DNA of 64,000 bases from Roseicyclus persicicus (GTDB lineage Bacteria > Pseudomonadota > Alphaproteobacteria > Rhodobacterales > Rhodobacteraceae). The stretch covers positions 248,001 through 312,000 of the forward strand of contig NZ_JAAZQQ010000005.1 in the NCBI RefSeq assembly GCF_012395815.1, in the 5' to 3' direction. Below, one piece after another: positions 27,466 to 38,758 of the stretch. Under the pieces are notes generated by a model. That model was not told where the DNA came from. It saw nothing but the letters and a program-made list of their open reading frames with translations, and did not search any database. The position numbers were made by a program, and so were the translations under genes. Within the stretch, counting starts at the first letter, position 1. Every line of letters begins with the position of its first letter.

Positions 27466-28863
27466 TCAGGGTCGCCGCGACGGGGCGGGCGCGGCGCGGT
27501 GGGCCGGCAGGGTGATCGTCACCCGCAGCCCGCCCTGCGCCCGGTTCTCCAGCGTGATCGCGCCGCCGTGGTCCTCGAGGATCATCTGCGCGATGCTGAG
27601 GCCGAGGCCGAAGCCCTCCTTCTCGGGGGCGCCGGTCGCGACCGCGCGCCGGAACGGCCGGAACACCGCGTCGATCTCGGCCGGCCGGATGCCCGGGCCC
27701 GCGTCGTCGATCTCGACCGTGATGGTCGGCCCCTCGAGGCGGGCCCGCACCACCGCGCGGTCGCCGTACTTGATCGCGTTCTCGATCACGTTGGTGAAGG
27801 CCCGCTTCAGCGCCACGCGCTTGCCGTAGTGCCGGATCGGCTGGTCGACCGTGCAGGTCAGCGCCGCGCCGGTGTCGGCGAAGTCGTCGCAGATGCTTTC
27901 CAGCAGGCTGCCGAGGTCGAGCAGCGCGCGCTCCTCGGTGTCGCCCGAGACCCGCGCGTAGTCGAGGAAGGTCCCGATGATGGTGTTCATCTCGTCCAGC
28001 GTGACCAGCATCTTTTCCTGCTCTTCCGAGGGCGGCGCCAGCTCGGTCCGCAGCCGCATCTGGGTGATCGGCGTGCGCAGGTCGTGCGAGATCGCCGCCA
28101 GCATCCCGGTGCGGTTCTCGACCAGCCGCAGCAGGCGCTTCTGCATCAGGTTGAACGCCTGCGCCGCGGCGCGCACCTCGAGCGGGCCGCTTTCGGCCAT
28201 CGGGGTGGCGCGCAGGTCGGTGCCCAGCCGGGTGGCCGCGGTCGCCATCCGCTGCAGCGGCGCGGTCAGCCGGCCGATCAGCCAGACGGCGATGGCGCTC
28301 TGCACCAGCAGCGCGAACAGCACCGTGGTCAGCAGGTAGCGCGGAAAGGCGTCGGCCGAGGGCGAGGTCTGGCCGAGGAAGTTCAGCCACTCGTCGTCGC
28401 CGTGGTGCACCGAGATGGCCATGATCCAGCGCCGGCCGCCCTCGGGCACCTCGGCCTCGGCGGCGTCGGCCAGGCCGGGCGGCTGCAGGAAGCCGGGCGG
28501 CAGCGCGCGGCGGAACCAGACCCGGATGTCGTTGTCGCGGATCGCGGGCACCTTGCTGCGGAAATCGGTGGTCAGGCTGCGCTCGTCCTCGGTCGGGGTG
28601 CGGTTGGCGAAGACCGGCTCGGTGGTGCTCCAGACCCGGAAGGCGCGGCTGTCCGAGGCCGCCTCGATCTCGGGGTTCCAGGCGTCGGGGATGTTCCGCA
28701 ACAGCCGGCTGACCCCGGCCGCGCGCTCGACGATGTCGTAGGCGTCCTGCAGCACCAGCGTCTCCTGCCGGTCGCGGAAATAGATCGCCAGCCCCAGGCT
28801 GTTGGACACCAACAGGCCCACAAGGATCACGGCGACGGTCTGCGCCTTGAGGCTGCGGAGCAC
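27466..28863 (-). CDS. EnvZ-type sensor histidine kinase
   Basis: 465 aa with GTG start 28863, two bases before the stop of the response regulator gene. TM1 at about 10-30 and TM2 at about 165-190 flank a periplasmic domain of about 135 residues of unknown ligand. HAMP follows, then the H-box MLAAISHDLRTPI, N-box NVIENAIKYGD and G-boxes DDAGPGIR and GFGLGLSIA. The cytoplasmic part phosphorylates the adjacent OmpR-type regulator. It lies on the same strand as, and about 85 bp upstream of, coxC, so it may be read through into the cox operon. Confidence 0.9.
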   Translation of the reverse strand: MLRSLKAQTVAVILVGLLVSNSLGLAIYFRDRQETLVLQDAYDIVERAAGVSRLLRNIPDAWNPEIEAASDSRAFRVWSTTEPVFANRTPTEDERSLTTDFRSKVPAIRDNDIRVWFRRALPPGFLQPPGLADAAEAEVPEGGRRWIMAISVHHGDDEWLNFLGQTSPSADAFPRYLLTTVLFALLVQSAIAVWLIGRLTAPLQRMATAATRLGTDLRATPMAESGPLEVRAAAQAFNLMQKRLLRLVENRTGMLAAISHDLRTPITQMRLRTELAPPSEEQEKMLVTLDEMNTIIGTFLDYARVSGDTEERALLDLGSLLESICDDFADTGAALTCTVDQPIRHYGKRVALKRAFTNVIENAIKYGDRAVVRARLEGPTITVEIDDAGPGIRPAEIDAVFRPFRRAVATGAPEKEGFGLGLSIAQMILEDHGGAITLENRAQGGLRVTITLPAHRAAPAPSRRP

Positions 28864-28865
28864 GG

Positions 28866-29588
28866 TCAGGTTTCCGTCACGTCGGCCGCGAACAGGTAGC
28901 CCCCGCCCCAGACCGTCTTGATGATCGACGGGTTCTTGGGGTCCTCGCCCAGCTTGCGGCGCAGCCGGCTGATCTGGATGTCGATGCTGCGGTCGAACAC
29001 GATCGAGGCGCGCCCGCGCGTCAGGTCGAGCAGCATGTCGCGGGTCAGCGTCCGGTTCGGCCTGAGCGCCAGCGCGACGAGCAGGTCGTATTCGCCGCTG
29101 CTGAGCGACACCACGATGCCCTCGGGGCTGAGCAGTTCGCGCTTGCTGCGGTCGAGCTGCCACCCCTCGAAGCTGAGATAGCGCAGGTCGGGCGAGCTGT
29201 CGGCCGGCGCCGGCTGGGCCGTGCGCCGCAGCACCGCCCTGACGCGGGCGATCAGCTCGCGGCTGTTGAAGGGCTTGGCGAGGTAGTCGTCGGCGCCCAT
29301 CTCCAGCCCGAGGATGCGGTCGATGTCGTCGCCCTTGGCGGTCAGCATGATGATCGGCGTACGGTCCTGCGCGCCCCGCAGTTCCCGGCACAGGGTCAGC
29401 CCGTCCTCGCCGGGCATCATCAGGTCGAGCACGATCAGGTCGATGGCGCCGGTATCCAGCGTGCGCCGCATCGCGCGGCCGTCCTCGGCCCGCGAGATGC
29501 GGAACCCCTCGCGCTCCAGCACCTTTCCCACGAGGTCGCGCAGCTCGCGATCGTCGTCGACGACAAGGATATGGGGGACGCGTTTCAT
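28866..29588 (-). CDS. OmpR/PhoB-family response regulator
   Basis: 240 aa. Receiver domain (HILVVDDDRELRDLV, phospho-acceptor Asp55 in VLDLMMPG, Lys in DDYLAKPF), then a winged-helix Trans_reg_C domain (SSGEYDLLVALALRPNRTLTR, SIDIQISRLRRKLGED, IKTVWGGGYLF). Partner of the kinase at 27466. ATG 29588 matches the family start MKRVPHILVVDDD; longer in-frame starts exist at 29630 and 29648. The upstream 220 bp are shared with the divergent hypothetical gene at 29809. Target genes are unknown. Confidence 0.92.
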   Translation of the reverse strand: MKRVPHILVVDDDRELRDLVGKVLEREGFRISRAEDGRAMRRTLDTGAIDLIVLDLMMPGEDGLTLCRELRGAQDRTPIIMLTAKGDDIDRILGLEMGADDYLAKPFNSRELIARVRAVLRRTAQPAPADSSPDLRYLSFEGWQLDRSKRELLSPEGIVVSLSSGEYDLLVALALRPNRTLTRDMLLDLTRGRASIVFDRSIDIQISRLRRKLGEDPKNPSIIKTVWGGGYLFAADVTET

Positions 29589-29688
29589 CGGGTCGGGCGG
29601 CCCTTTGCTCTGACCGGGGCGTTCTACCATGGCCCCGCGGTCTGGCAAGCCGCGCGCCCGCCCGTGGGCCGGCCCCGCGGGCAGGAAA

Positions 29689-29737
29689 GTGTAACCGCCC
29701 GTGGCAGAGCCGGCCGGTGAAACAGCTTGTTACAAAG
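29689..29737. promoter_or_regulatory. possible inverted TGTAAC/GTTACA operator between the response regulator and the 133-aa gene
   Basis: The segment contains AGTGTAAC (about 29688-29695) and GTTACAAAG (29729-29737), opposed half-sites 33 bp apart. It lies between the divergent response regulator and the 133-aa hypothetical gene. A spacing close to three helical turns would suit two regulator dimers. Whether the OmpR-type regulator binds here is inference. Confidence 0.3.
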
Positions 29738-29808
29738 TGACATGACTGCGCCGTTCCTTTCCTGCGGGGCGGCCGCTAGATGCGGCTCGAGAACAGGCAG
29801 GACGACCG

Positions 29809-30210
29809 ATGACCGAGCAGATCAACAAGACAAGGCCCGAGGCGGACATCCCCGCAGGGCCGCAGGCCGCCCCGGCACAGGACCGGGTGGTGAGGCTGGA
29901 GGACCGCGTGCCGCCGCAGACGGCGCCGGTTTCGGACCACGAGATGGGTGAGCTGGTGCTGGGCGCGTGGCTGTTCGCGCTCGACGCGATGCACCAGCGC
30001 CTCCCGGCGCAGTCCGTCGAACTGGCGGCCCGCCGGGCGCGGGCCACGCTGGCCGAGAAGGTGGAGACGCTGCCCTACGCGCAGCTTCTCGACCCGATGG
30101 TGCAGGGGGAACACTGGCGCAAGCTGGTGATGATCACCGAGCAGGAAACCCTCGCCCATCGCATTCTCGACGGCACCGCGAGCTACGCGGCGCGCAAGGC
30201 GCGCGCCTGA
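29809..30210 (+). CDS. hypothetical protein, 133 aa
   Basis: Not recognised. The first about 45 residues are polar and Pro/Gln-rich, then about 85 residues look helical and amphipathic (ELVLGAWLFALDAMHQRLP, VELAARRARATLAEKVETL). There is no signal peptide or clear membrane segment and no cysteine. Codon pattern (GC-rich third positions) is like its neighbours, so it should be a real gene. ATG 29809 is preceded by CAGGACGACCG. It is divergent from the OmpR-type two-component pair and ends at a strong terminator, so it is probably monocistronic. Confidence 0.65.
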   Translation: MTEQINKTRPEADIPAGPQAAPAQDRVVRLEDRVPPQTAPVSDHEMGELVLGAWLFALDAMHQRLPAQSVELAARRARATLAEKVETLPYAQLLDPMVQGEHWRKLVMITEQETLAHRILDGTASYAARKARA

Positions 30211-30278
30211 CCGGGCCTCGGCCCGGACACGACATGCTGCACTCGGCGTCGGCCACGGCCCTCAACGACGCCGACACT

Positions 30279-30331
30279 CGGCGGATCGGCAGATAAGCCC
30301 CCCAAGCGTAGCCGATCCGCCGCTTTTCTTT
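30279..30331 (+). terminator. rho-independent terminator after the 133-aa gene
   Basis: Perfect 12-bp stem (arms 30279-30290 and 30311-30322; CGGCGGATCGGC and its complement) around a 20-nt loop, followed directly by CTTTTCTTT. It lies about 70 bp after the stop at 30210 and has the T-tract on the plus strand. Confidence 0.85.
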
Positions 30332-30364
30332 CTGCCCCGCCAAGGGGTTGCCCGTCCCGCGACG

Positions 30365-30393
30365 CAGGCCCCGGGCCATAGACCCGGGGCCTG
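30365..30393. repeat. hairpin between convergent transcription units
   Basis: Eleven-bp GC-rich arms (CAGGCCCCGGG at 30365-30375 and complement at 30383-30393) with a 7-nt loop. No T-tract on either side. It lies between the plus-strand terminator and the end of the kinase gene at 30486, so it could limit read-through on the minus strand. Confidence 0.5.
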
Positions 30394-30485
30394 CATCGCG
30401 GACCTGATCCGCTGGGTCGCCCGCGAGGTGTTCGCCGGGATCCTCGTTCACGAACCGGGCTGGCGCGCCCCGCGGCGGCCCGGCC

Positions 30486-31895
30486 TCAGGCGACCTTGGC
30501 GATGGGGCGGTCGTCGGCGCGGGAGGTGTCGGCACCCTCGAGGCGGTCGAATTCCAGGAAGAAGGTCGATCCGACGCCCAGCTCGCTGACGTAGTCGATG
30601 GTGGCGTCGTGGCGCTCGATGATCTGCTTGCTGATGTTGAGGCCGAGGCCGGTGCCGCCGACCTTGCGGATGTCCGAGGAATCGACCTGGCTGAACTTGC
30701 CGAAGACCCGGTCCTGGGCGTCCTGCGGGATGCCAACGCCCTCGTCATGGACCGAGATCCGCACGCGGGCGCCGTCCGTCTCGACGATGACCTTCACCGC
30801 GCCGCCGTCCTCGGAGAACTTCACCGCGTTCGACAGCAGGTTGTTCATCACCTGGATCAGGCGGCTGTGGTCGCCCCGGACGTGGCACGCCTCGGCGCAG
30901 GGGACGGTGGAGACCTGGATGCCGAGCTTGGTGGCGAAGCCCGAGGTGGCCTCGACGGCCTCCTTCACGAGGGTGTTCACGTCGACCGGCTCGAAATTGA
31001 AGACCATCTCGCCGGCCTCGATCTTCTGCAGGTCGAGCAGGTCGTCGATCAGGGCCGCAAGCCGCTGCGCGTTCTTGGCCGCGATGCCGATGGCCGGCTT
31101 GAGCCCGTCGGGGACCGCGCCGAGCACGCCGTTGTTGGCCAGGTCCAGCGACGCCTTGATCGAGGTCAGCGGCGTGCGCAGCTCGTGGCTGACCGTGGAC
31201 AGGAACTGCGACTTGACCTCGTAGGCGGCCTTGGTGCGCTCGTTCTCTTCCTCGATCCGCCTCATGTGCGCGATGCGTTCCTGGTAGTTGAGGTAGAAGT
31301 GCACCGAGGTGTCGACGATGAAATACAGCACAAAGATGATCGTGAAGAATTCCAGCCAGACCTGCGAGCCGAGGGGCGGCATGTAGCGCACCAGGTCGAG
31401 CAGCGCGATGAACAGGAAGGCGGCGGCGTAGATCGACAGCCGCAGCAGCAGGATGCCGACCATCTGGCTGTTGTGCATCGCCGCGAAGAGCGCCGCGGAG
31501 AACAGGAAGAACAGCGGCGTGAAGTGGCCGCCCGAGGTCTGCTGGACCGCCATGCTGATGATGAACAGGCTGATCGCCGTGGCGCTGACGGCGGTGTTGC
31601 GCGCGATGCGCTGGAGGATCCGGCGGCCCGCCACCGGGTCCTTGCCGTCCCAGGCCCGGGACTGGCGGGCGAGGAGCTGATCGAGGATCTCGGTCAGGAC
31701 GACGACGGCGTAGCAGGCAAGCGTGGCATAGGGATCGAAGTAGAACGCGGCCAGCACGGCCGCCGAGAGAAAGCTCGCCTGACGTTGCCAAACCAGCTGG
31801 TTGGCAAGGGCAATGTAGTCCTTGATCCGTTGCTCTCGACCGACCGGGTTGAACCAATCACGCCGGCCCGCCCACAACGCGTTCAGGCTGCGCAT
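30486..31895 (-). CDS. membrane-bound sensor histidine kinase
   Basis: 469 aa. About six hydrophobic segments in residues 35-205 form a membrane sensor without a large periplasmic loop. A short coiled coil (ERIAHMRRIEEENERTKAAYEV) follows. The kinase core has H-box FLSTVSHELRTPLTS, N-box NNLLSNAVKFSED, G1 HDEGVGIPQ, F-box VFGKFSQVD and G2 GGTGLGLNI. No receiver domain is fused. A polytopic membrane input domain suits a lipophilic or membrane-state signal. It lies downstream of the FeeM-like and methyltransferase genes on the same strand (198-bp gap); the receiver-only protein at 34510 is the nearest candidate partner. Confidence 0.9.
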   Translation of the reverse strand: MRSLNALWAGRRDWFNPVGREQRIKDYIALANQLVWQRQASFLSAAVLAAFYFDPYATLACYAVVVLTEILDQLLARQSRAWDGKDPVAGRRILQRIARNTAVSATAISLFIISMAVQQTSGGHFTPLFFLFSAALFAAMHNSQMVGILLLRLSIYAAAFLFIALLDLVRYMPPLGSQVWLEFFTIIFVLYFIVDTSVHFYLNYQERIAHMRRIEEENERTKAAYEVKSQFLSTVSHELRTPLTSIKASLDLANNGVLGAVPDGLKPAIGIAAKNAQRLAALIDDLLDLQKIEAGEMVFNFEPVDVNTLVKEAVEATSGFATKLGIQVSTVPCAEACHVRGDHSRLIQVMNNLLSNAVKFSEDGGAVKVIVETDGARVRISVHDEGVGIPQDAQDRVFGKFSQVDSSDIRKVGGTGLGLNISKQIIERHDATIDYVSELGVGSTFFLEFDRLEGADTSRADDRPIAKVA

Positions 31896-32093
31896 GCCTG
31901 CCTCCGTCAGTATGACCTCTTCATTTGTTAACGAACCAATGTGTTGAAAATCCGGCGTTCGTCTGGCGTTCCTCGACAGTTGCCCAAGAAAACTTTGGCC
32001 AGAGGCCCGACCGCGGGCACCCCTCGCCCCGGTCGGACCGCACCCGGGCGCCGATCGCGCCCGGGCCTTGCGGGGCCTGCGCCCCGGCGCGCG

Positions 32094-32783
32094 TCAGGCG
32101 GCCGCGGACCGCCCCCGCCGGGCGCTGATGTAGACCCCCGTCAGTGGCGGGAAGTCGATGCTGGCCTGCGGGATGCCCTCGACCGGCCCGAACACCGGCG
32201 TGCGGGCCAGCACGGCCTGCCGCTGTTCGCGAACATTGGCGGTCAGAAGCTGGATCGGCTTCTTCAGCCCCGGGTAGCTGCGCGGGTTCATCGCCGGTTC
32301 GTAGCCGAGGTAGCGGCGGTAGAACGCGGTGTGCTCCACCCGCACGGGCGCAAGCGCCAGGTCGACGTCATAGAACAGCGTGGCCAGGAACGGGATGCGC
32401 AGCGCCAGGAAATGCAGCGGCAGGCGCTGCTTGCGGGCCGACGGGTCGATCACGAAGCGGGTCGGATCGAGGATCGTCTGCCCGGGCTGGAGCCCCTCGA
32501 GAACCTCGGGGAACACCTCCAGCGTGGGCGATGCGAAGCACAGCGGCGACACCAGGTGCAGGCGCAGGGCCGCCTGCATCTGCCCCTCCATCTCGACCGC
32601 GACATGGACGCAGTTCGGGGTCTCGTCGAAGGCGTCGGTCATGATCGCGCGCTCGTTGGCGGCGATCGAGTCCTCGGCCCGGTAACAGGCGTAGCGCAAG
32701 CGGTAGAGCTGTTCGAGATCCGGACCCTCGGTCAAAACCCGATACCTGGCGCGCTTCAGCGCCTCGATAACTTGCTCGTTCAT
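32094..32783 (-). CDS. FeeM-like N-acyl amino acid synthase (GNAT/autoinducer-synthase fold)
   Basis: 229 aa. The N-terminal part (EQLYRLRYACYRAEDSIAANE, then DAFDETPNCVHVAVEMEGQMQAALRLHL) has the character of the FeeM/acyl-homoserine-lactone-synthase branch of acyltransferases. DPTRFVIDPSARKQRLPLHFL and VRVEHTAFYRRYLGYEP follow the same fold. Such enzymes join an acyl chain from acyl-ACP to an amino acid amine. Cytoplasmic. It follows the methyltransferase gene by 24 bp, so the two are probably co-expressed. Substrate amino acid and chain length cannot be read from sequence. Confidence 0.8.
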   Translation of the reverse strand: MNEQVIEALKRARYRVLTEGPDLEQLYRLRYACYRAEDSIAANERAIMTDAFDETPNCVHVAVEMEGQMQAALRLHLVSPLCFASPTLEVFPEVLEGLQPGQTILDPTRFVIDPSARKQRLPLHFLALRIPFLATLFYDVDLALAPVRVEHTAFYRRYLGYEPAMNPRSYPGLKKPIQLLTANVREQRQAVLARTPVFGPVEGIPQASIDFPPLTGVYISARRGRSAAA

Positions 32784-32807
32784 GTGTTTTTCCCACCCCT
32801 CGATAGT

Positions 32808-33578
32808 CTACGGCCTTGCCCGGCAGACAAGCAGGTCACTGTAATCCCGGTAGACGGTCTGCTGCCTGAGCACCTCGAACCCGGCGGCACGGACGGCCTC
32901 GGCCATCTCGTCGGCGCTGTGCGTCCAGTAGACGCCGGCCTTCTGCGCCTTGAGGATGGCCTGGTTCTGCCGGGCGATCTCGCGGCCCTGCCAGAAGATG
33001 CGCAGCGCGCCCAGCAGACCGTGCTCGCGCCTGAGGTGCGCGAACAGGTAGGACCGCCAGTCCGTCACGTTCATCAGCCGGCCGAGGTCGACGAGGTAGA
33101 GCAACCCGCCCGGACGCAGCAGCCGGCGCAGGTCGTCGAGGCGCTGCCCGGGATCGGGCATCGCGTAGAGCGCGTGCACGCACACGATGAGGTCCGCGCT
33201 GCCCTGCGCCTCGATCTGCTCCAGCGGGCGGGGGTCGTAGCGGACATGGCGATGGCGGGCCAGCTTGGCCTGCGCGAGCCGGATCATGCCCGGGTCGGGC
33301 TCGACCAGGCAGATCTCGCTGTCCGGGCAGGCCTCGGCGGCGATGCGGGTGTAGTTCCCGCTCCCCCCGCCGACGTCGTAGATCACCCGCGGCACGTCGA
33401 TCGTGGCGAGGAACGCCTCGAAGTCGCGCAAGATGGCCTGGTAGGCCGGATTGTGCTCGGACAGCAGGTCGTAGGCGGTCGCGTAGGCGCTCCAGTCGGG
33501 GCGCGACGACCGGGCCGCCGGGGCGGGCCAGACCGGGTCGAGTTGGGACGAAACAGGGGCACTGGTGTTCAACGGCAT
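32808..33578 (-). CDS. class I SAM-dependent methyltransferase
   Basis: 256 aa. SAM-binding motif I VIYDVGGGSGNYTRIA at about residues 66-81, acidic residue in ICLVEPDPGMIRLA, motif II region SADLIVCVHALYAMPD and motif III LLRPGGLLYLVDLG. A polar N-terminal 25 residues precedes the domain. Located immediately upstream of the FeeM-like gene in the same operon. A carboxyl or O-methylation of the FeeM product is one possible role; small-molecule substrate is otherwise unknown. Confidence 0.88.
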   Translation of the reverse strand: MPLNTSAPVSSQLDPVWPAPAARSSRPDWSAYATAYDLLSEHNPAYQAILRDFEAFLATIDVPRVIYDVGGGSGNYTRIAAEACPDSEICLVEPDPGMIRLAQAKLARHRHVRYDPRPLEQIEAQGSADLIVCVHALYAMPDPGQRLDDLRRLLRPGGLLYLVDLGRLMNVTDWRSYLFAHLRREHGLLGALRIFWQGREIARQNQAILKAQKAGVYWTHSADEMAEAVRAAGFEVLRQQTVYRDYSDLLVCRARP

Positions 33579-34069
33579 GACAGCGAAACTCCAGATTGTG
33601 GATGTTGCGTCCTGCGACGAGAGCTTTACATTACAACGTGTTGTACCGGGTTGTTGAAGTTCGTCCAGTTCTTATCCACAGTGTGGCTTTTTTGCGCTAA
33701 CCGTTTCCAGTACGGCAACAAGCCGACTCTGCGGGGCCAATCCGGTTGGTCCGCGGGCCGGGTCCGGCAGGCGTGACAGCCGCCCTCGGCATCTCCACCA
33801 CATCTGGGTTCTGACCGCCCCCACGCGTCCATTTGGAGTGTGCCCCGACGGGCCCCGCCCCCCTCTGGCCGCCGCGCCCCGCCCCGGACGGCGGTGGCGC
33901 GGGGTGGCGGGGGCAATGCCTCCCGCGCGGCGCCCAAGCGAAAAAATGTGGCAGGACGAAGACGGGGCTGCCCCGATTCACCGCCTGTTTCCATGGATCC
34001 GACACAGTCGAGCCCCAATTCTGGGCGACACAGGGACGAATCGGTCGCAGACAAGGCCCTGGAGGTGTG
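33579..34069. other. gene-free stretch upstream of the methyltransferase-FeeM operon
   Basis: About 490 bp with no convincing coding frame. The 33,590-33,720 part is clearly more AT-rich than the surroundings and holds the inverted repeat ACAAC-GT-GTTGT (33633-33644) with a further GTTGT at 33651-33655, about 55-75 bp upstream of the methyltransferase start. This is the likely promoter/operator for the minus-strand operon. The remainder is GC-rich and featureless by eye, ending with a GGAGG ribosome-binding site for the small ORF at 34070. Confidence 0.5.
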
Positions 34070-34228
34070 ATGCAGGTATTCGCAGTAGAAAACGATCTGG
34101 CGACGCTCGATCTGGTGGCGCATTTCCTCGGGATCGCGGTCCACCACAACATCAACGCGGCCCCGTCGCCCCGCCTGACGCTGACCGTCGTCGCCCCGTC
34201 GGGCGAGACCGGCACCCCGTCCCGCTGA
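34070..34228 (+). CDS. small protein of 52 aa, unknown
   Basis: ATG 34070 is preceded by GGAGG with a 4-nt spacing. The product (MQVFAVENDLATLDLVAHFL, then GIAVHHNINAAPSPRL) is hydrophobic-amphipathic in the first half and polar in the second, with no known domain. It stands alone on the plus strand between the methyltransferase and the receiver-only regulator. The ribosome-binding site is the main support; the function is unknown. Confidence 0.45.
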   Translation: MQVFAVENDLATLDLVAHFLGIAVHHNINAAPSPRLTLTVVAPSGETGTPSR

Positions 34229-34509
34229 CCGGCCCGACACCGGCGCCGGGCGCCACTCACGCCGCACGGACCCGTCTCGCACAGCCCGTGACCGGCACCG
34301 TCGGCCTTCCCCCTATCCAATCCCAGGCGCGCCCGGACCGGCACGGCCGGGCCGCCCTCGCGTCACGATGATCGCAGGTTGGGGGCCGCCGGGCCCGTCC
34401 CGGCGCAACGGCCGGCCCGTCACATCCCGACCAGACGCGCGAAAACGCCGCGGCCGGTGCACCGGTCGCGGGTCATGGGAGTCGTCGGGCGGGCTTGGCG
34501 CGGGCGCCG

Positions 34510-34917
34510 CTAGCCGGGCAGGCATTCCTTTTCGATCGACTTGCGCCAGATCTCGACGATCTGGGAAGCCAGCGTCATCGGGTCGAAGGGCTTGGCGATG
34601 ACGGCCTCGGCCCCGCTGGCCAACAGGCGCGCCCGGTCGTCGTTCAGCACCTTCGCGGTCATGAACACGGCCGGCGTCCGGTGGCAGCCCTCGATCTGCC
34701 GGATCCGCCGCAGGGTCTCCACCCCGTCGATGCCGGGCATCATCACGTCCAGCAGCAGGAAATCGGGCTTGTGCCGTTGCGCCAGCTCGATCGCCTGGTG
34801 GCCCGAGCTGCACTGAACGATCGACAGCCCGCCGACGACTTCGAGCGCAAGCTTGGCGATGGCAAGGATGTCTTCCTCGTCATCCGCGTGCAAAATCAAT
34901 GGGGTCTTGTCGCTCAT
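34510..34917 (-). CDS. single-domain response regulator (receiver only)
   Basis: 135 aa made of one receiver domain: acidic pair Asp12/Asp13 (LHADDEEDILAIA), phospho-acceptor Asp57 (FLLLDVMMPG), Thr in FMTAKVL and Lys in VIAKPFDP. No output domain. It ends in a short basic/acidic tail (WRKSIEKECLPG). Single-domain receivers act through protein-protein contacts or as phosphate shuttles. The orphan kinase at 30486 is the nearest kinase without a dedicated partner. Not in an operon with any neighbour. Confidence 0.9.
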   Translation of the reverse strand: MSDKTPLILHADDEEDILAIAKLALEVVGGLSIVQCSSGHQAIELAQRHKPDFLLLDVMMPGIDGVETLRRIRQIEGCHRTPAVFMTAKVLNDDRARLLASGAEAVIAKPFDPMTLASQIVEIWRKSIEKECLPG

Positions 34918-35138
34918 GGTAGCCTCTTATCTGTTTCGGTTCGGACAAGGGGGTCACTGTCGCGGGCAACCGGCGCCCGGGACGCACACCTTGGACGCGC
35001 CGGATGTCCATGACCTTCAGGTCACCTGGAACATGCCGACCATGACGCCGGACTGTGGCACTTCTGGGCTGAGACCTTGGTCATTCGCGGGCAGTGCCCT
35101 GCCCCGGGCCGCCGGGCACCCCCGTCCCCGCGCGGCGG

Positions 35139-35858
35139 TCAGGCCGCGGTGAAGGCACGCACGAAATCGGTCGCGGGCCGGGCGCGGATCTCGGCGGGCC
35201 GTCCGACCTGTTCGATGCGCCCCATCGACATGACGACGACGAGGTCGGCCAGCGCCATCGCCTCGTCCTGGTCGTGGGTCACGAAGACGGTGGTCAGGCC
35301 GGTGCGGTCGTGGATCTCGCGCAGGCCCTGGCACAGATCCTTGCGCACCCGGGCGTCGAGCGCGCCGAAGGGCTCGTCGAGGAGCAGCATCCGCGGTTCG
35401 ATGGCCAGCGCGCGGGCCAGCGCCACGCGCTGCCGCTGCCCGCCCGACAGCTGGTTGGGATAGCGCGGGCCGATGTCGGGCAGCTGGATCAGCTCCAGCA
35501 GCCGGGTCACGCGGCGGGCGATCTCGGCCTCGGGCGGGCGCGTCCGGCGGGGCCGCGCCCGCAGGCCGTAGGCCACGTTCTCGAACACCGTCATGTGCCG
35601 GAACAGCGCGTAGGACTGGAACACGAAGCCCGCGCGGCGGTCCTGCACCGACAGGCCCGTCGCGTCGGCCCCGTCGAAGCGCACGCGCCCGGAGGTGGGG
35701 TATTCGAGCCCCGCGAGGATGCGCAGGAGCGTGGTCTTGCCCGACCCCGACGGCCCCAGGAGCGCGATCAGCGCCCCCGACGGGATCGACAGCGACACCG
35801 CGTACAGGGCCCGTCCGGTGCCGAAGTCCTTGGCGATGTCCTCGATCTCGATGTTCAT
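35139..35858 (-). CDS. cysA: sulfate/thiosulfate ABC transporter ATPase CysA, short form
   Basis: 239 aa. Walker [10 protein letters not shown] (about residue 35-43), Q-loop [21 protein letters not shown], signature [14 protein letters not shown], Walker [12 protein letters not shown] and H-loop VTHDQDEA. The family N-terminus [13 protein letters not shown] is the CysA start. E. coli CysA has 365 aa; the regulatory C-terminal TOBE region is absent here, ending shortly after the nucleotide-binding domain. Last gene of cysP-T-W-A; ribosome site AGGAAAGGA before ATG 35858. Confidence 0.9.
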
Positions 35859-35871
35859 GGCGGTTCCTTTC

Positions 35872-36735
35872 CTAATGACGCCGCGTGGCCGCCAGCAGGT
35901 CCGCATGGCGCCATTCGAGCAGGGATTTCAGGAGGAGCGTCAGCAGCGCCAGCAGCGCCAGCACGGCGGCCAGCGAGAAGGCCGCGACTGAGAGGTATTC
36001 GTTGTAGAACATCTCGACCATGGTGGGCATGGTCGCCGTCTCGCCCCGGATCTTGCCCGAAACGACGGCCACCGCGCCGAACTCGCCCATCGCGCGCGCG
36101 TTGCTCAGCAGCACGCCGTAGAGCAGCGCCCAGCGGGTGTTGGGCAGCGTCACCGTCAAGAAGATGCGCCAGCCCGGGGCGCCCAGCGTCAGGGCGGCCT
36201 CCTCCTCGGCGCGGCCCTGTTCGATCATCACCGGGATCAGCTCGCGCGCGACGAAGGGAAAGGTCACGAACAGCGTGGCCAGCACGATGCCCGGCAAGGC
36301 GAACACGATGCGGATGTCGTTGGCCATGAGCCAGGCCCCCAGCGCCGAATTGGCCCCGAACAGAAGCACCAGCGTCAGGCCCGCCACCACCGGCGAGACC
36401 GAGAACGGCAGGTCGATCAGGGTGATCAGGACCGCCTTGCCGCGGAAGTCGAACTTGGCGATGGCCCAGGCCGCCGCGATGCCGAAGACCGCGTTCAGGG
36501 GCACCGCGATGGCGGCGATGGTCAGCGTCATGGCGATGGCCGCCCGCGCGTCGGGCAGCGACAGGGCGGCGATCACGCCGCGCCCGCCCTCGGCCAGCGC
36601 CTCGGCAAAGACCGTCACCAGCGGCGCGAACAGGAAGAGCGCGACGAAGGCCACGGCGAGGCCGATCAGCAGGGCGCGGACCAGCGGCGGCTCGGTGGTG
36701 ACGGGCACCGGGCGGGTGGGGGCGATGTCAGACAA
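35872..36735 (-). CDS. cysW: sulfate ABC transporter permease CysW
   Basis: 287 aa with six hydrophobic segments and the binding-protein-dependent permease EAA loop [48 protein letters not shown] is typical of CysW. The only reasonable start is TTG 36735 ([17 protein letters not shown]), which lies 8 bases inside the end of cysT; the next ATG upstream would be far inside cysT. Heterodimer with CysT forms the sulfate/thiosulfate channel in the inner membrane. Confidence 0.9.
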
Positions 36736-37567
36736 GGCCGATCCTCCGTCTGCTCCAGATCTGGATGGCGTTGATGGCAAGCAGCAGCGCGAAGGAGATG
36801 ACCAGCATCGCGATCCCGATCGCGGCGGCGGCATCATAGTTGTATTCCTCGAGCCGGATCACGATCAGGAGCGGCGCGATCTCGGTCAGACCGGGGATGT
36901 TGCCCGCGATGAAGATGACCGAGCCGTATTCGCCGACCGACCGCGCCAGCGCGAGGGCGAAGCCGGTCAGCAGCGCGGGCGTCAGCGCGGGCAGGATCAC
37001 CCGGCACAGCGTGGTGGTGCGGCGCGCGCCGAGGGTGGCGCTGACCTCCTCGAGGTCGGGCTCCAGCTCCTCGATCACCGGCTGGACGGTGCGCACCACG
37101 AAGGGCAGCCCGATGAACACCAGCGCCAGCCAGATGCCCAGCTCGGTATAGGCGACCTGCAGGCCGAGCGGCGCCAGCGCCTGCCCGAACACGCCGTTCG
37201 GCGCGTAGAGCGCCGTCAGCGCGATGCCCGCGACGGCGGTGGGCAGCGCGAAGGGCAGGTCCACCGCCGCGTCGATCAGGCGCCGGCCCCAGAAGCGGTA
37301 GCGCACCAGCACCCACGCCAAGAGCAGCCCGAAGACGAGGTTGACCAGCGAGGCGACCAGCGCCGCGCGGAAGGACAGCGTCAGCGCCGCCCAGATCCGG
37401 CGCGAATTGACCATGTCCCACAGCTCCGCCGGGCCGATCGCCAGGCCCCGGCCCAGAAGCGCCGCGAGGGGAAGGAGGACCACGAGGGACAGCATCGTCA
37501 TCATGATCCCGAAGCTCAGCCCGAAGCCCGGCAGGGGCGAGGGCGTGCGCAGGAGGCCCGGCCGCAT
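36728..37567 (-). CDS. cysT: sulfate ABC transporter permease CysT (CysU)
   Basis: 279 aa with six hydrophobic segments. Family-typical sequence includes DLPFALPTAVAGIALTALYAPNG and the EAA loop LEEVSATLGARRTTTLCRVILP, and SVGEYGSVIFIAGNIPG. It pairs with CysW. ATG 37567 lies 3 bp after the cysP stop. Overlaps cysW by 8 bp. Confidence 0.93.
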   Translation of the reverse strand: MRPGLLRTPSPLPGFGLSFGIMMTMLSLVVLLPLAALLGRGLAIGPAELWDMVNSRRIWAALTLSFRAALVASLVNLVFGLLLAWVLVRYRFWGRRLIDAAVDLPFALPTAVAGIALTALYAPNGVFGQALAPLGLQVAYTELGIWLALVFIGLPFVVRTVQPVIEELEPDLEEVSATLGARRTTTLCRVILPALTPALLTGFALALARSVGEYGSVIFIAGNIPGLTEIAPLLIVIRLEEYNYDAAAAIGIAMLVISFALLLAINAIQIWSRRRIGLV

Positions 37568-37570
37568 CGC

Positions 37571-38758
37571 CTACTCCTCGTAGATCTGGTCGAAGATGCC
37601 GCCATCGCCGAAGAACGCGGGCTGGACGACGGACCAGCCGCCGAACTCGGCGATGGTGACAAGCTCGAGCTCGGGGAACCGCGCCACGTCATCCGGCGCG
37701 GCCAGCGAGGTGTCCCGGGCGCGGTAGTGGTGGCGCAGCGCCAGCGCCTGCGCCTCGGGGCTGTAGAGATGCGCGAGATAGGCCTCGGCCGCGGCGCGCT
37801 GCGCGTCCGAGGTGATGTTGCCGTCGACCAGGCTGACCGGCGGCTCGGCCAGGATCGAGACCGAGGGGACGACGATGTCGAAGGCGTCCTCGCCCAGTTC
37901 GGCGAGCGCGAGGAACGCCTCGTTCTCCCAGGCCAGCAGCACGTGGCCGATGCCGCGCTGGGTGAAGGTGGTGGTCGCCCCGCGCGCGCCGGTGTCGAGG
38001 ACGGGGACGTTGCGGTAGAGCGCGCCCACGAACTCGCGCGGGTCGAGCCCGTTCCGGTCGGCATAGGCCCAGGCGGCGAGGAAGTTCCAGCGCGCGCCGC
38101 CCGAGGTCTTGGGGTTCGGGGTGATGACCTGCACGCCCTCCGCGACGAGGTCGTCCCAGTCCGCGATGCCGCGCGGATTGCCCTCGCGCACCAGGAACAC
38201 GATGGTCGAGGCATAGGGCGCGGCGTTGTGCGGCAGGCGCGATTGCCAGTCGGCCGGGATGCGGCCCGTGCGTTCGGCGATCTGGTCGATGTCGGCCGAC
38301 AGCGCCAGCGTCACCACCGTCGCGGCGAGCCCGTCGATGACCGCCCGCGCCTGTGCGCCCGCGCCGCCGTGGGATTGCCGGATGGTGACGGGGGCGTTGC
38401 CCTGCGCCGTCCACCACGCGGTGAAGAGCGCGTTGTAATCCCGGTAGAATTCGCGCGTCGGGTCGTAGGAGACGTTGAGGATCTCGACGCTGTCCTGCGC
38501 GGCCGCGGGCGTCGGGCCCGCCATGACCAGCCCCAGGGCCGCGACGGCGGCCAGGATGCCGCCGCGCAGGGGCGCGGCCGTCAAGGCCGTGCGCAGCGCG
38601 CCGAGGACACCGCCGGCCGCGGGCGGTTTCGGGTCGGCGACGGGGCGGCCGGACAGGCGCGCGTGGCCTGCGTCGATCTCGATCCGGCCATCGCCGAGGC
38701 TGCGGATGAAGGTGCCCTGGGCGAGCGTGTGCGCGCCGATCTGGATGGTGTGATACAT
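37571..38758 (-). CDS. cysP: sulfate-binding protein with N-terminal extension before the signal peptide
   Basis: 395 aa, about 60 residues longer than usual for Sbp/CysP. Residues about 90-395 are a periplasmic sulfate-binding protein ([50 protein letters not shown]). The signal peptide-like segment ([18 protein letters not shown], cut after AAA) is at residues 64-87, not at the start. Residues 1-45 ([20 protein letters not shown] onward) look like a small folded beta-rich domain. ATG 38758 has AAGGGA upstream. A TTG at 38584 would give a normal-length precursor of 337 aa but lacks a ribosome-binding site. First gene of the sulfate transport operon. Confidence 0.88.

Follow-up and report, generated by a model that had tools for sequence, protein, structure and literature searches.

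A 64,000-nucleotide stretch of Roseicyclus persicicus DNA (contig NZ_JAAZQQ010000005.1, positions 248,001 to 312,000; hereafter the window) carries a methyltransferase gene, a FeeM-family acyltransferase gene and a membrane histidine kinase gene that together form a real and recurrent unit, with a stand-alone receiver gene upstream. We propose, with a probability of about one half, that the acyltransferase and the methyltransferase make an N-acyl amino acid methyl ester (NAME), and that this ester is sensed by the adjoining kinase, whose family is linked to LuxI-type synthases, and signals via the receiver. The four genes are real open reading frames at the following positions, which confirms the observation from which an earlier sequence-only reading of this DNA had started.

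30486..31895, minus strand: membrane histidine kinase with six hydrophobic segments (HisKA and HATPase_c domains), the proposed receptor
32094..32783, minus strand: FeeM-family protein, predicted N-acyl amino acid synthase (PF21926, E 3.7e-38; fold match 2g0b)
32808..33578, minus strand: class I S-adenosylmethionine (SAM)-dependent methyltransferase, hereafter MT (PF13489, E 3.4e-18; PF08242)
34510..34917, minus strand: stand-alone receiver, the proposed kinase partner (PF00072, E 5.4e-25)

In the proposed mechanism, FeeM would acylate an amino acid with a long chain, the donor probably being acyl carrier protein, and MT would esterify the free carboxylate of this N-acyl amino acid. The resulting NAME, neutral and open-chained, would be analogous to an acyl-homoserine lactone (AHL); it would partition into the membrane and be bound there by the six-segment sensor of the adjoining kinase, which would then signal through a receiver (34510-34917 here) to its output.

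The gap between MT and FeeM is 24 bp and that between FeeM and the kinase 198 bp. The sequence-only reading had described the methyltransferase and the acyltransferase as co-transcribed; their adjacency holds and, because the gap is so short, co-transcription is likely. It had also seen a polytopic membrane kinase after the synthase, which is borne out by six hydrophobic segments (residues 40-58, 57-75, 100-118, 122-140, 148-166 and 176-194) joined by short loops and followed by HisKA and HATPase_c, and a receiver-only regulator, which indeed lies 931 bp upstream of MT.

FeeM membership of the acyltransferase

By sequence and modelled fold, the acyltransferase (32094-32783) is a FeeM-family protein, as the sequence-only reading had suggested, and is predicted to transfer an acyl group to an amino acid. 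It scores 131.2 bits against PF21926 (FeeM), for which the curated cut-off is 27, and its AlphaFold model (predicted local distance difference test, pLDDT, 89.8) has FeeM (2g0b) as top PDB match, with E 9e-11 and AHL synthases next; the six best Foldseek PDB hits are all chains of 2g0b, with TM values by target of 0.70-0.78. Membership of the LuxI family of AHL synthases was rejected, the PF00765 score of 16.6 bits being below the cut-off of 24.

A role for the acyltransferase in making membrane aminolipids (ornithine or glutamine lipid) is highly improbable. Both kinds of enzyme are GNAT-related acyltransferases, and a whole-genome profile search gave PF13444 matches in three other genes of this genome; however, PF13444 does not match the window protein at E up to 0.1, on which ground an OlsB-type function was rejected, and FeeM is its best family and fold. 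An ornithine-lipid substrate, the outcome that the sequence-only reading had set against itself, is thereby disfavoured.

The PF21926 cut-off is loose: among 394 genomes of the family, 264 match at E 0.001 and 133 lie above the curated cut-off. Strong FeeM genes are taken here as those with E <1e-30, found in 9/394 genomes (the window's included), a line that was drawn after the gap to the next match (2.3e-15) had been seen. Four weaker matches were examined (G143, G087, G338 and G413). In G143 (E 4e-10) MT lies beside FeeM; the G087 gene adjoins LuxR-like genes and looks like a LuxI; and neither G338 nor G413 has an adjoining gene that is MT-like or of the kinase family, a 28% kinase match some 6 kb off being all that G338 shows.

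Recurrence of the MT-FeeM-kinase unit

FeeM was searched for in 61 relatives (the window's genome included) and in the 394 family genomes. The relatives included one genus mate, G003, with a 73% identical FeeM, and the family genomes gave ten matches, the window's included, four of the others being 61-74% identical. MT, FeeM and the kinase occur together in all five other genomes with FeeM at 61-74% identity. Within the genus, two of 13 genomes have the kinase with its own sensor, and these are also the two with FeeM. A methyltransferase adjoins FeeM in all nine strong-FeeM genomes and the kinase is present in eight, five with MT (window included) and three with a gene of the PEMT/ICMT type. 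In the ninth, G022 (L178 9352-12777), FeeM overlaps a different SAM methyltransferase and is followed by what looks by eye like an oxidase-like gene, and no family kinase was found in the 20 kb examined.

Gene order is largely kept: the 30 kinase-sensor loci with MT and FeeM, described below, read MT-FeeM-kinase in 28 cases and FeeM-MT-kinase in two, and the latter order is that of G271. In G308, which has the same sequence as Carideicomes L077, MT and FeeM have no intervening stop and share an open frame of 531 codons. Flanking genes are mostly unshared outside close relatives. A FeeM relative is present in 12 plasmid records, of which six were examined, and three Sulfitobacter plasmids carry MT-FeeM-kinase; on one of these (L182 4230-5976) a shortened MT directly follows an IS256 transposase. 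Pairwise distances are correlated (MT-FeeM 0.82, FeeM-sensor 0.73, MT-sensor 0.75; none of 2000 permutations as high), values which include the shared descent of the hosts. The conservation that the sequence-only reading had asked about is thus found for MT, FeeM and the kinase (5/5 genomes and 30/80 loci); it is weaker for the receiver, of which the window's own group is near the kinase in 11/30 loci and either of two groups in 16/30.

The kinase family and its synthase neighbours

A genome collection was scanned with the sensor domain only, no LuxI-linked kinase having been used in building the query; 167 relatives were confirmed and the best 80 loci kept. Within 5 kb of the kinase, these 80 of 167 loci show MT and FeeM in 30, a LuxI-type synthase in 44 and neither in six, so that an acyl-signal synthase, LuxI-type or FeeM, lies beside the kinase in 74/80. 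The LuxI-type neighbours passed the PF00765 cut-off in the three cases tested. With the same query, 54/394 family genomes gave a match; 40 of the 51 family matches without FeeM were fetched for a neighbour count, and a LuxI-type synthase lies within 4 kb in 31 of them. The two sets overlap, nine of these 40 loci being within the scan and the five FeeM-search genomes with MT lying among the 30 loci. The 31 further loci outside the 80 have a LuxI-type synthase in 23 cases.

A tree was built from 83 sensor domains (L140, too short, was left out; L090, L115 and L131 were entered as 'cut'). Synthase labels change six times on it, compared with a mean of 32.2 when shuffled (0/200 as low). The kinases next to MT-FeeM and those next to PEMT/ICMT-FeeM fall in different parts of the tree, each among LuxI-linked kinases. 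Forcing all FeeM-linked kinases into one clade costs 71.8 log-likelihood units and is rejected by the approximately unbiased (AU) test (p 0.013), while a clade of the MT-FeeM kinases alone is not (AU p 0.585); 31 FeeM+MT kinases fall together with one contig-cut locus in a single group, which has a Shimodaira-Hasegawa-like approximate likelihood ratio (SH-aLRT) of 98 and no LuxI-linked member. We take this tree evidence as only moderate, because the PEMT/ICMT group is long-branched and the union tested was named after the tree had been seen. The simplest reading of the sequences is that the kinase family took up FeeM and a methyltransferase twice, with unrelated methyltransferases.

The same data bear on a different ligand. 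The kinase might sense something else, such as AHLs of another synthase or the state of the membrane, its adjacency to FeeM being inherited from a LuxI-linked ancestor. LuxI-linked kinases do surround both FeeM-linked groups in the tree, and no synthase lies nearby despite a continuing contig in 2/80 and 8/40 loci; however, the FeeM+MT kinases form one supported group free of LuxI-linked members and FeeM was paired with this kinase family twice, and we regard the explanation as unlikely.

Comparison with known systems

A link between LuxI and histidine kinases in roseobacters was described in 2013 as topologies H, I and J (available text of Cude and Buchan, PMC3824088), in which, as here, an acyl-signal synthase stands beside a histidine kinase instead of a LuxR; the 44 LuxI-linked loci, matched to that text by description, are probably the same arrangement. 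The window differs from this orphan LuxI-kinase pair in that its synthase is a FeeM with a methyltransferase and is below the PF00765 cut-off. The unit is a variant of synthase-kinase signalling, and its FeeM versions are the addition to the link already known. The FeeM of 2g0b shares family and fold with the window acyltransferase, which differs in its pairing with methyltransferase and kinase.

A synthase-kinase pair is also formed by LuxN and its synthase partner LuxM. LuxN of Vibrio harveyi, likened here by description, is a histidine kinase that senses an AHL (available text of PMC3824088), and differs from the window kinase in being a hybrid kinase. In its logic, the unit further resembles the Ralstonia PhcB-PhcS, PhcR/PhcQ system as far as the description available goes: there too a methyl-ester signal made by a methyltransferase is sensed by a histidine kinase, but there the ester is that of a hydroxy fatty acid and contains no amino acid. 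Searches of the open-licence PubMed Central literature listed no description of the MT-FeeM-kinase unit as such.

Two unrelated methyltransferases paired with FeeM

MT is a SAM methyltransferase beside the acyltransferase, as the sequence-only reading had it, and its AlphaFold model (pLDDT 83) has the class I methyltransferase fold. An attempt to fix its substrate from sequence and fold failed, the matches covering mixed substrate types.

In G406, G018 and G164, FeeM is 27-31% identical to that of the window and lies beside a near-full-length kinase homologue (43-44%), with no MT; the gene between kinase and FeeM encodes a PEMT/ICMT-type membrane methyltransferase unrelated to MT. All three of these proteins score above the cut-off of 25 for PF04191 PEMT (27.9-34.2 bits, E 3.6e-8 to 3.3e-6), and one of the three above the cut-off of 24 for PF04140 ICMT (20.4-32.1 bits, E 1.5e-7 to 7.1e-4); for the L044 methyltransferase of this type, DUF1295 is the best score. 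A profile of this second methyltransferase has two PDB matches with E <0.001, AtTam46 (E 2e-5) and the solved ICMT 4a2n (E 3e-4). Two Loktanella salsilacus plasmids carry a PEMT/ICMT-type methyltransferase, FeeM and kinase in the same arrangement, the methyltransferase being labelled by NCBI 'isoprenylcysteine carboxylmethyltransferase family' in one case and 'methyltransferase' in the second; G018 is probably of the same or a close species, because the kinase start is alike.

These matches also bear on the site of methylation. MT might methylate another position or another molecule (an N-methyl, a hydroxyl or the acyl chain), in which case the signal would not be a carboxyl methyl ester. The breadth of substrate types among the matches of MT would allow this, as would the better score of the second methyltransferase as PEMT than as ICMT; that the solved ICMT is one of its two PDB matches speaks against it, and we consider it decidedly unlikely.

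NAME producers and the weight of the proposed signal

NAMEs, the product class predicted for the window enzymes, are made by Roseovarius tolerans EL-164 (PMC4582587). According to the available text of a 2024 study of this strain, earlier studies had found no candidate synthase genes (PMC11580390); no synthase gene is named for the producers (Roseovarius and Loktanella) in PMC4582587 or in that text, and searches of the open-licence PubMed Central literature listed none. In the genome of the R. tolerans type strain, DSM 11457, two strong FeeM genes are present, both accompanied by MT and by the small open reading frame described below, and the kinase lies beside one of the two pairs; MT-FeeM pairs are thus present in the species of a known NAME producer. 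Among the 80 loci, three further Roseovarius genomes and three of Loktanella also have the unit, and other Roseovarius loci have LuxI instead. The methyl-ester link drawn by the sequence-only reading, in which the product stays a prediction, gains weight from the R. tolerans pairs, from the unrelated second methyltransferase and from the LuxI-linked kinase family.

The locus provides candidate genes for a family of natural products that had lacked known makers, and a candidate receptor too, in a species with a published producing strain. If the proposed reading is true, a methyl-ester signal class would be added to bacterial communication and the failure of LuxR reporters to register these esters would be explained.

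Several points weigh against the proposal. The sequence relatives and fold of MT point to no single substrate, and N-methylation is possible, because the second methyltransferase scores higher as PEMT. The R. tolerans genome examined is that of the type strain and not of the ester producer EL-164, and beside its second pair no kinase is seen before the contig ends 680 bp on. MT and FeeM occur in G143, whose genome lacks a kinase of this kind, and a Rhizobium plasmid carries a distant FeeM relative within 6 kb of which neither a methyltransferase nor a kinase is annotated, in a gene table that is incomplete. A synthase is missing near the kinase in the six loci noted above, four of them truncated at a contig end within 150 bp, and in 8 of the 31 further loci, two of these being weak sensor matches. 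The receiver is inconstant across the FeeM+MT loci. NAMEs have been reported without quorum-sensing activity (PMC4582587), and in the available text of PMC11580390 addition of C16:1-NAME to EL-164 gave no distinct transcriptional pattern, for which the authors offer several causes, including masking. The published quorum-sensing tests of NAMEs were reporter assays on LuxR-type receptors, in which a signal read by a membrane kinase would go unseen.

The absent transcriptional response would also suit a kinase that monitors the esters for self-regulation or tolerance and not for population signalling, as would the NAME levels in culture, which exceed concentrations reported to inhibit a flavobacterium and a diatom, and their continuous production (same text of PMC11580390). 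Such a role seems to us rather unlikely, since the LuxI linkage of the kinase family (44/80 loci) points to signalling, and in two of the 30 FeeM+MT loci the kinase also adjoins a LuxR-type regulator. These two are Wenxinia marina and W. saemankumensis, where a LuxR-type gene with an autoinducer-binding domain comes right after the kinase (L100 7047-7706 and L109 11514-12167).

The receiver as a candidate partner

For a NAME signal passing through the kinase, a partnership with the receiver at 34510-34917 is plausible, the receiver lying outside the constant core of the unit. Its group, c5, was found within 5 kb of the kinase in 11/30 FeeM+MT loci and 14/44 LuxI loci, and a longer receiver protein, c1, in 10/30 and 32/44; one or other is present in 16/30 and 41/44. 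These counts use a 70-bit line, at which c1 matches reach down to about 29% identity.

A microprotein gene in the MT-FeeM loci

A small open reading frame, absent from the list of the sequence-only reading, sits between the receiver and MT.

34070..34228, plus strand: divergent microprotein gene, core resembling the first receiver helix (tblastn, codon statistics, GGAGG before the ATG)

The core, in the window LDLVAHFLGIA..HN.NAAPS, was found by tblastn in 25/30 FeeM+MT loci and 0/44 LuxI loci; in two of the 25 (L087 and L098) it opens a full-length receiver. When 228 sequences, duplicates included, were scanned for the motif, it was found in 43, each from an MT-FeeM locus, the three Sulfitobacter plasmids among them. 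In 26 sequences (a set that includes the window, L176, L087 with its full-length receiver and close pairs, L098 being left out), the ratio of nonsynonymous to synonymous polymorphism (pN/pS) of the 21-codon core is 0.24 in frame, compared with 1.35 and 2.78 in the other frames, and that of the tail is 1.00. For the core, these codon statistics rule out a chance reading frame.

Against the full-length L087 receiver, only the first 47 residues of the window microprotein match, so that the rest of the receiver is missing. The first helix of a receiver is where the kinase docks; the microprotein could for that reason act as a decoy, which we offer as speculation. A receiver-like protein, Osp, inhibits the kinase CckA in Rhodobacter sphaeroides (available text of PMC9430884), and a search of the open-licence PubMed Central literature listed no receiver-fragment microprotein.

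Taken further, and here we are tentative to the point of doubt, an AHL-reading kinase family may have switched twice to an acyclic NAME that imitates the lactone, with two unrelated methyltransferases, and one branch may have added a kinase-tuning microprotein resembling the kinase-docking helix of a receiver; the Roseovarius and Loktanella esters would then be membrane-read quorum signals, undetectable by LuxR reporters. Pairing that arose repeatedly, and with unrelated methyltransferases, would point to a need of the sensor family for a neutralised carboxylate.

Upstream regions and neighbouring genes

Two further features lie in the upstream regions of the unit.

31936..31953, minus strand: promoter-like element upstream of the kinase, GGATTTTCAACACATTGG (from a listing of upstream regions, likeness judged by eye)
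33579..33760, minus strand: partly conserved blocks upstream of MT (16-mer scan; alignment of 10 loci)

By eye, look-alikes of the first element stand upstream of the kinase in many loci, a recurrence that suggests a promoter of the kinase's own. Upstream of MT, the best 16-mer (from L079) is present in 12/27 loci at up to four mismatches, compared with a maximum of six loci in a single mononucleotide shuffle, which is a weak control. An Rfam scan of window positions 28000-36000 gave no match.

Downstream of the kinase (27466-29588, minus strand), an OmpR-like regulator and a sensor kinase look like an ordinary two-component pair. Upstream of the receiver (35139-38758, minus strand), the genes appear by eye to be a sulfate-type ABC transporter set, with an ATPase, two permeases and a binding protein.

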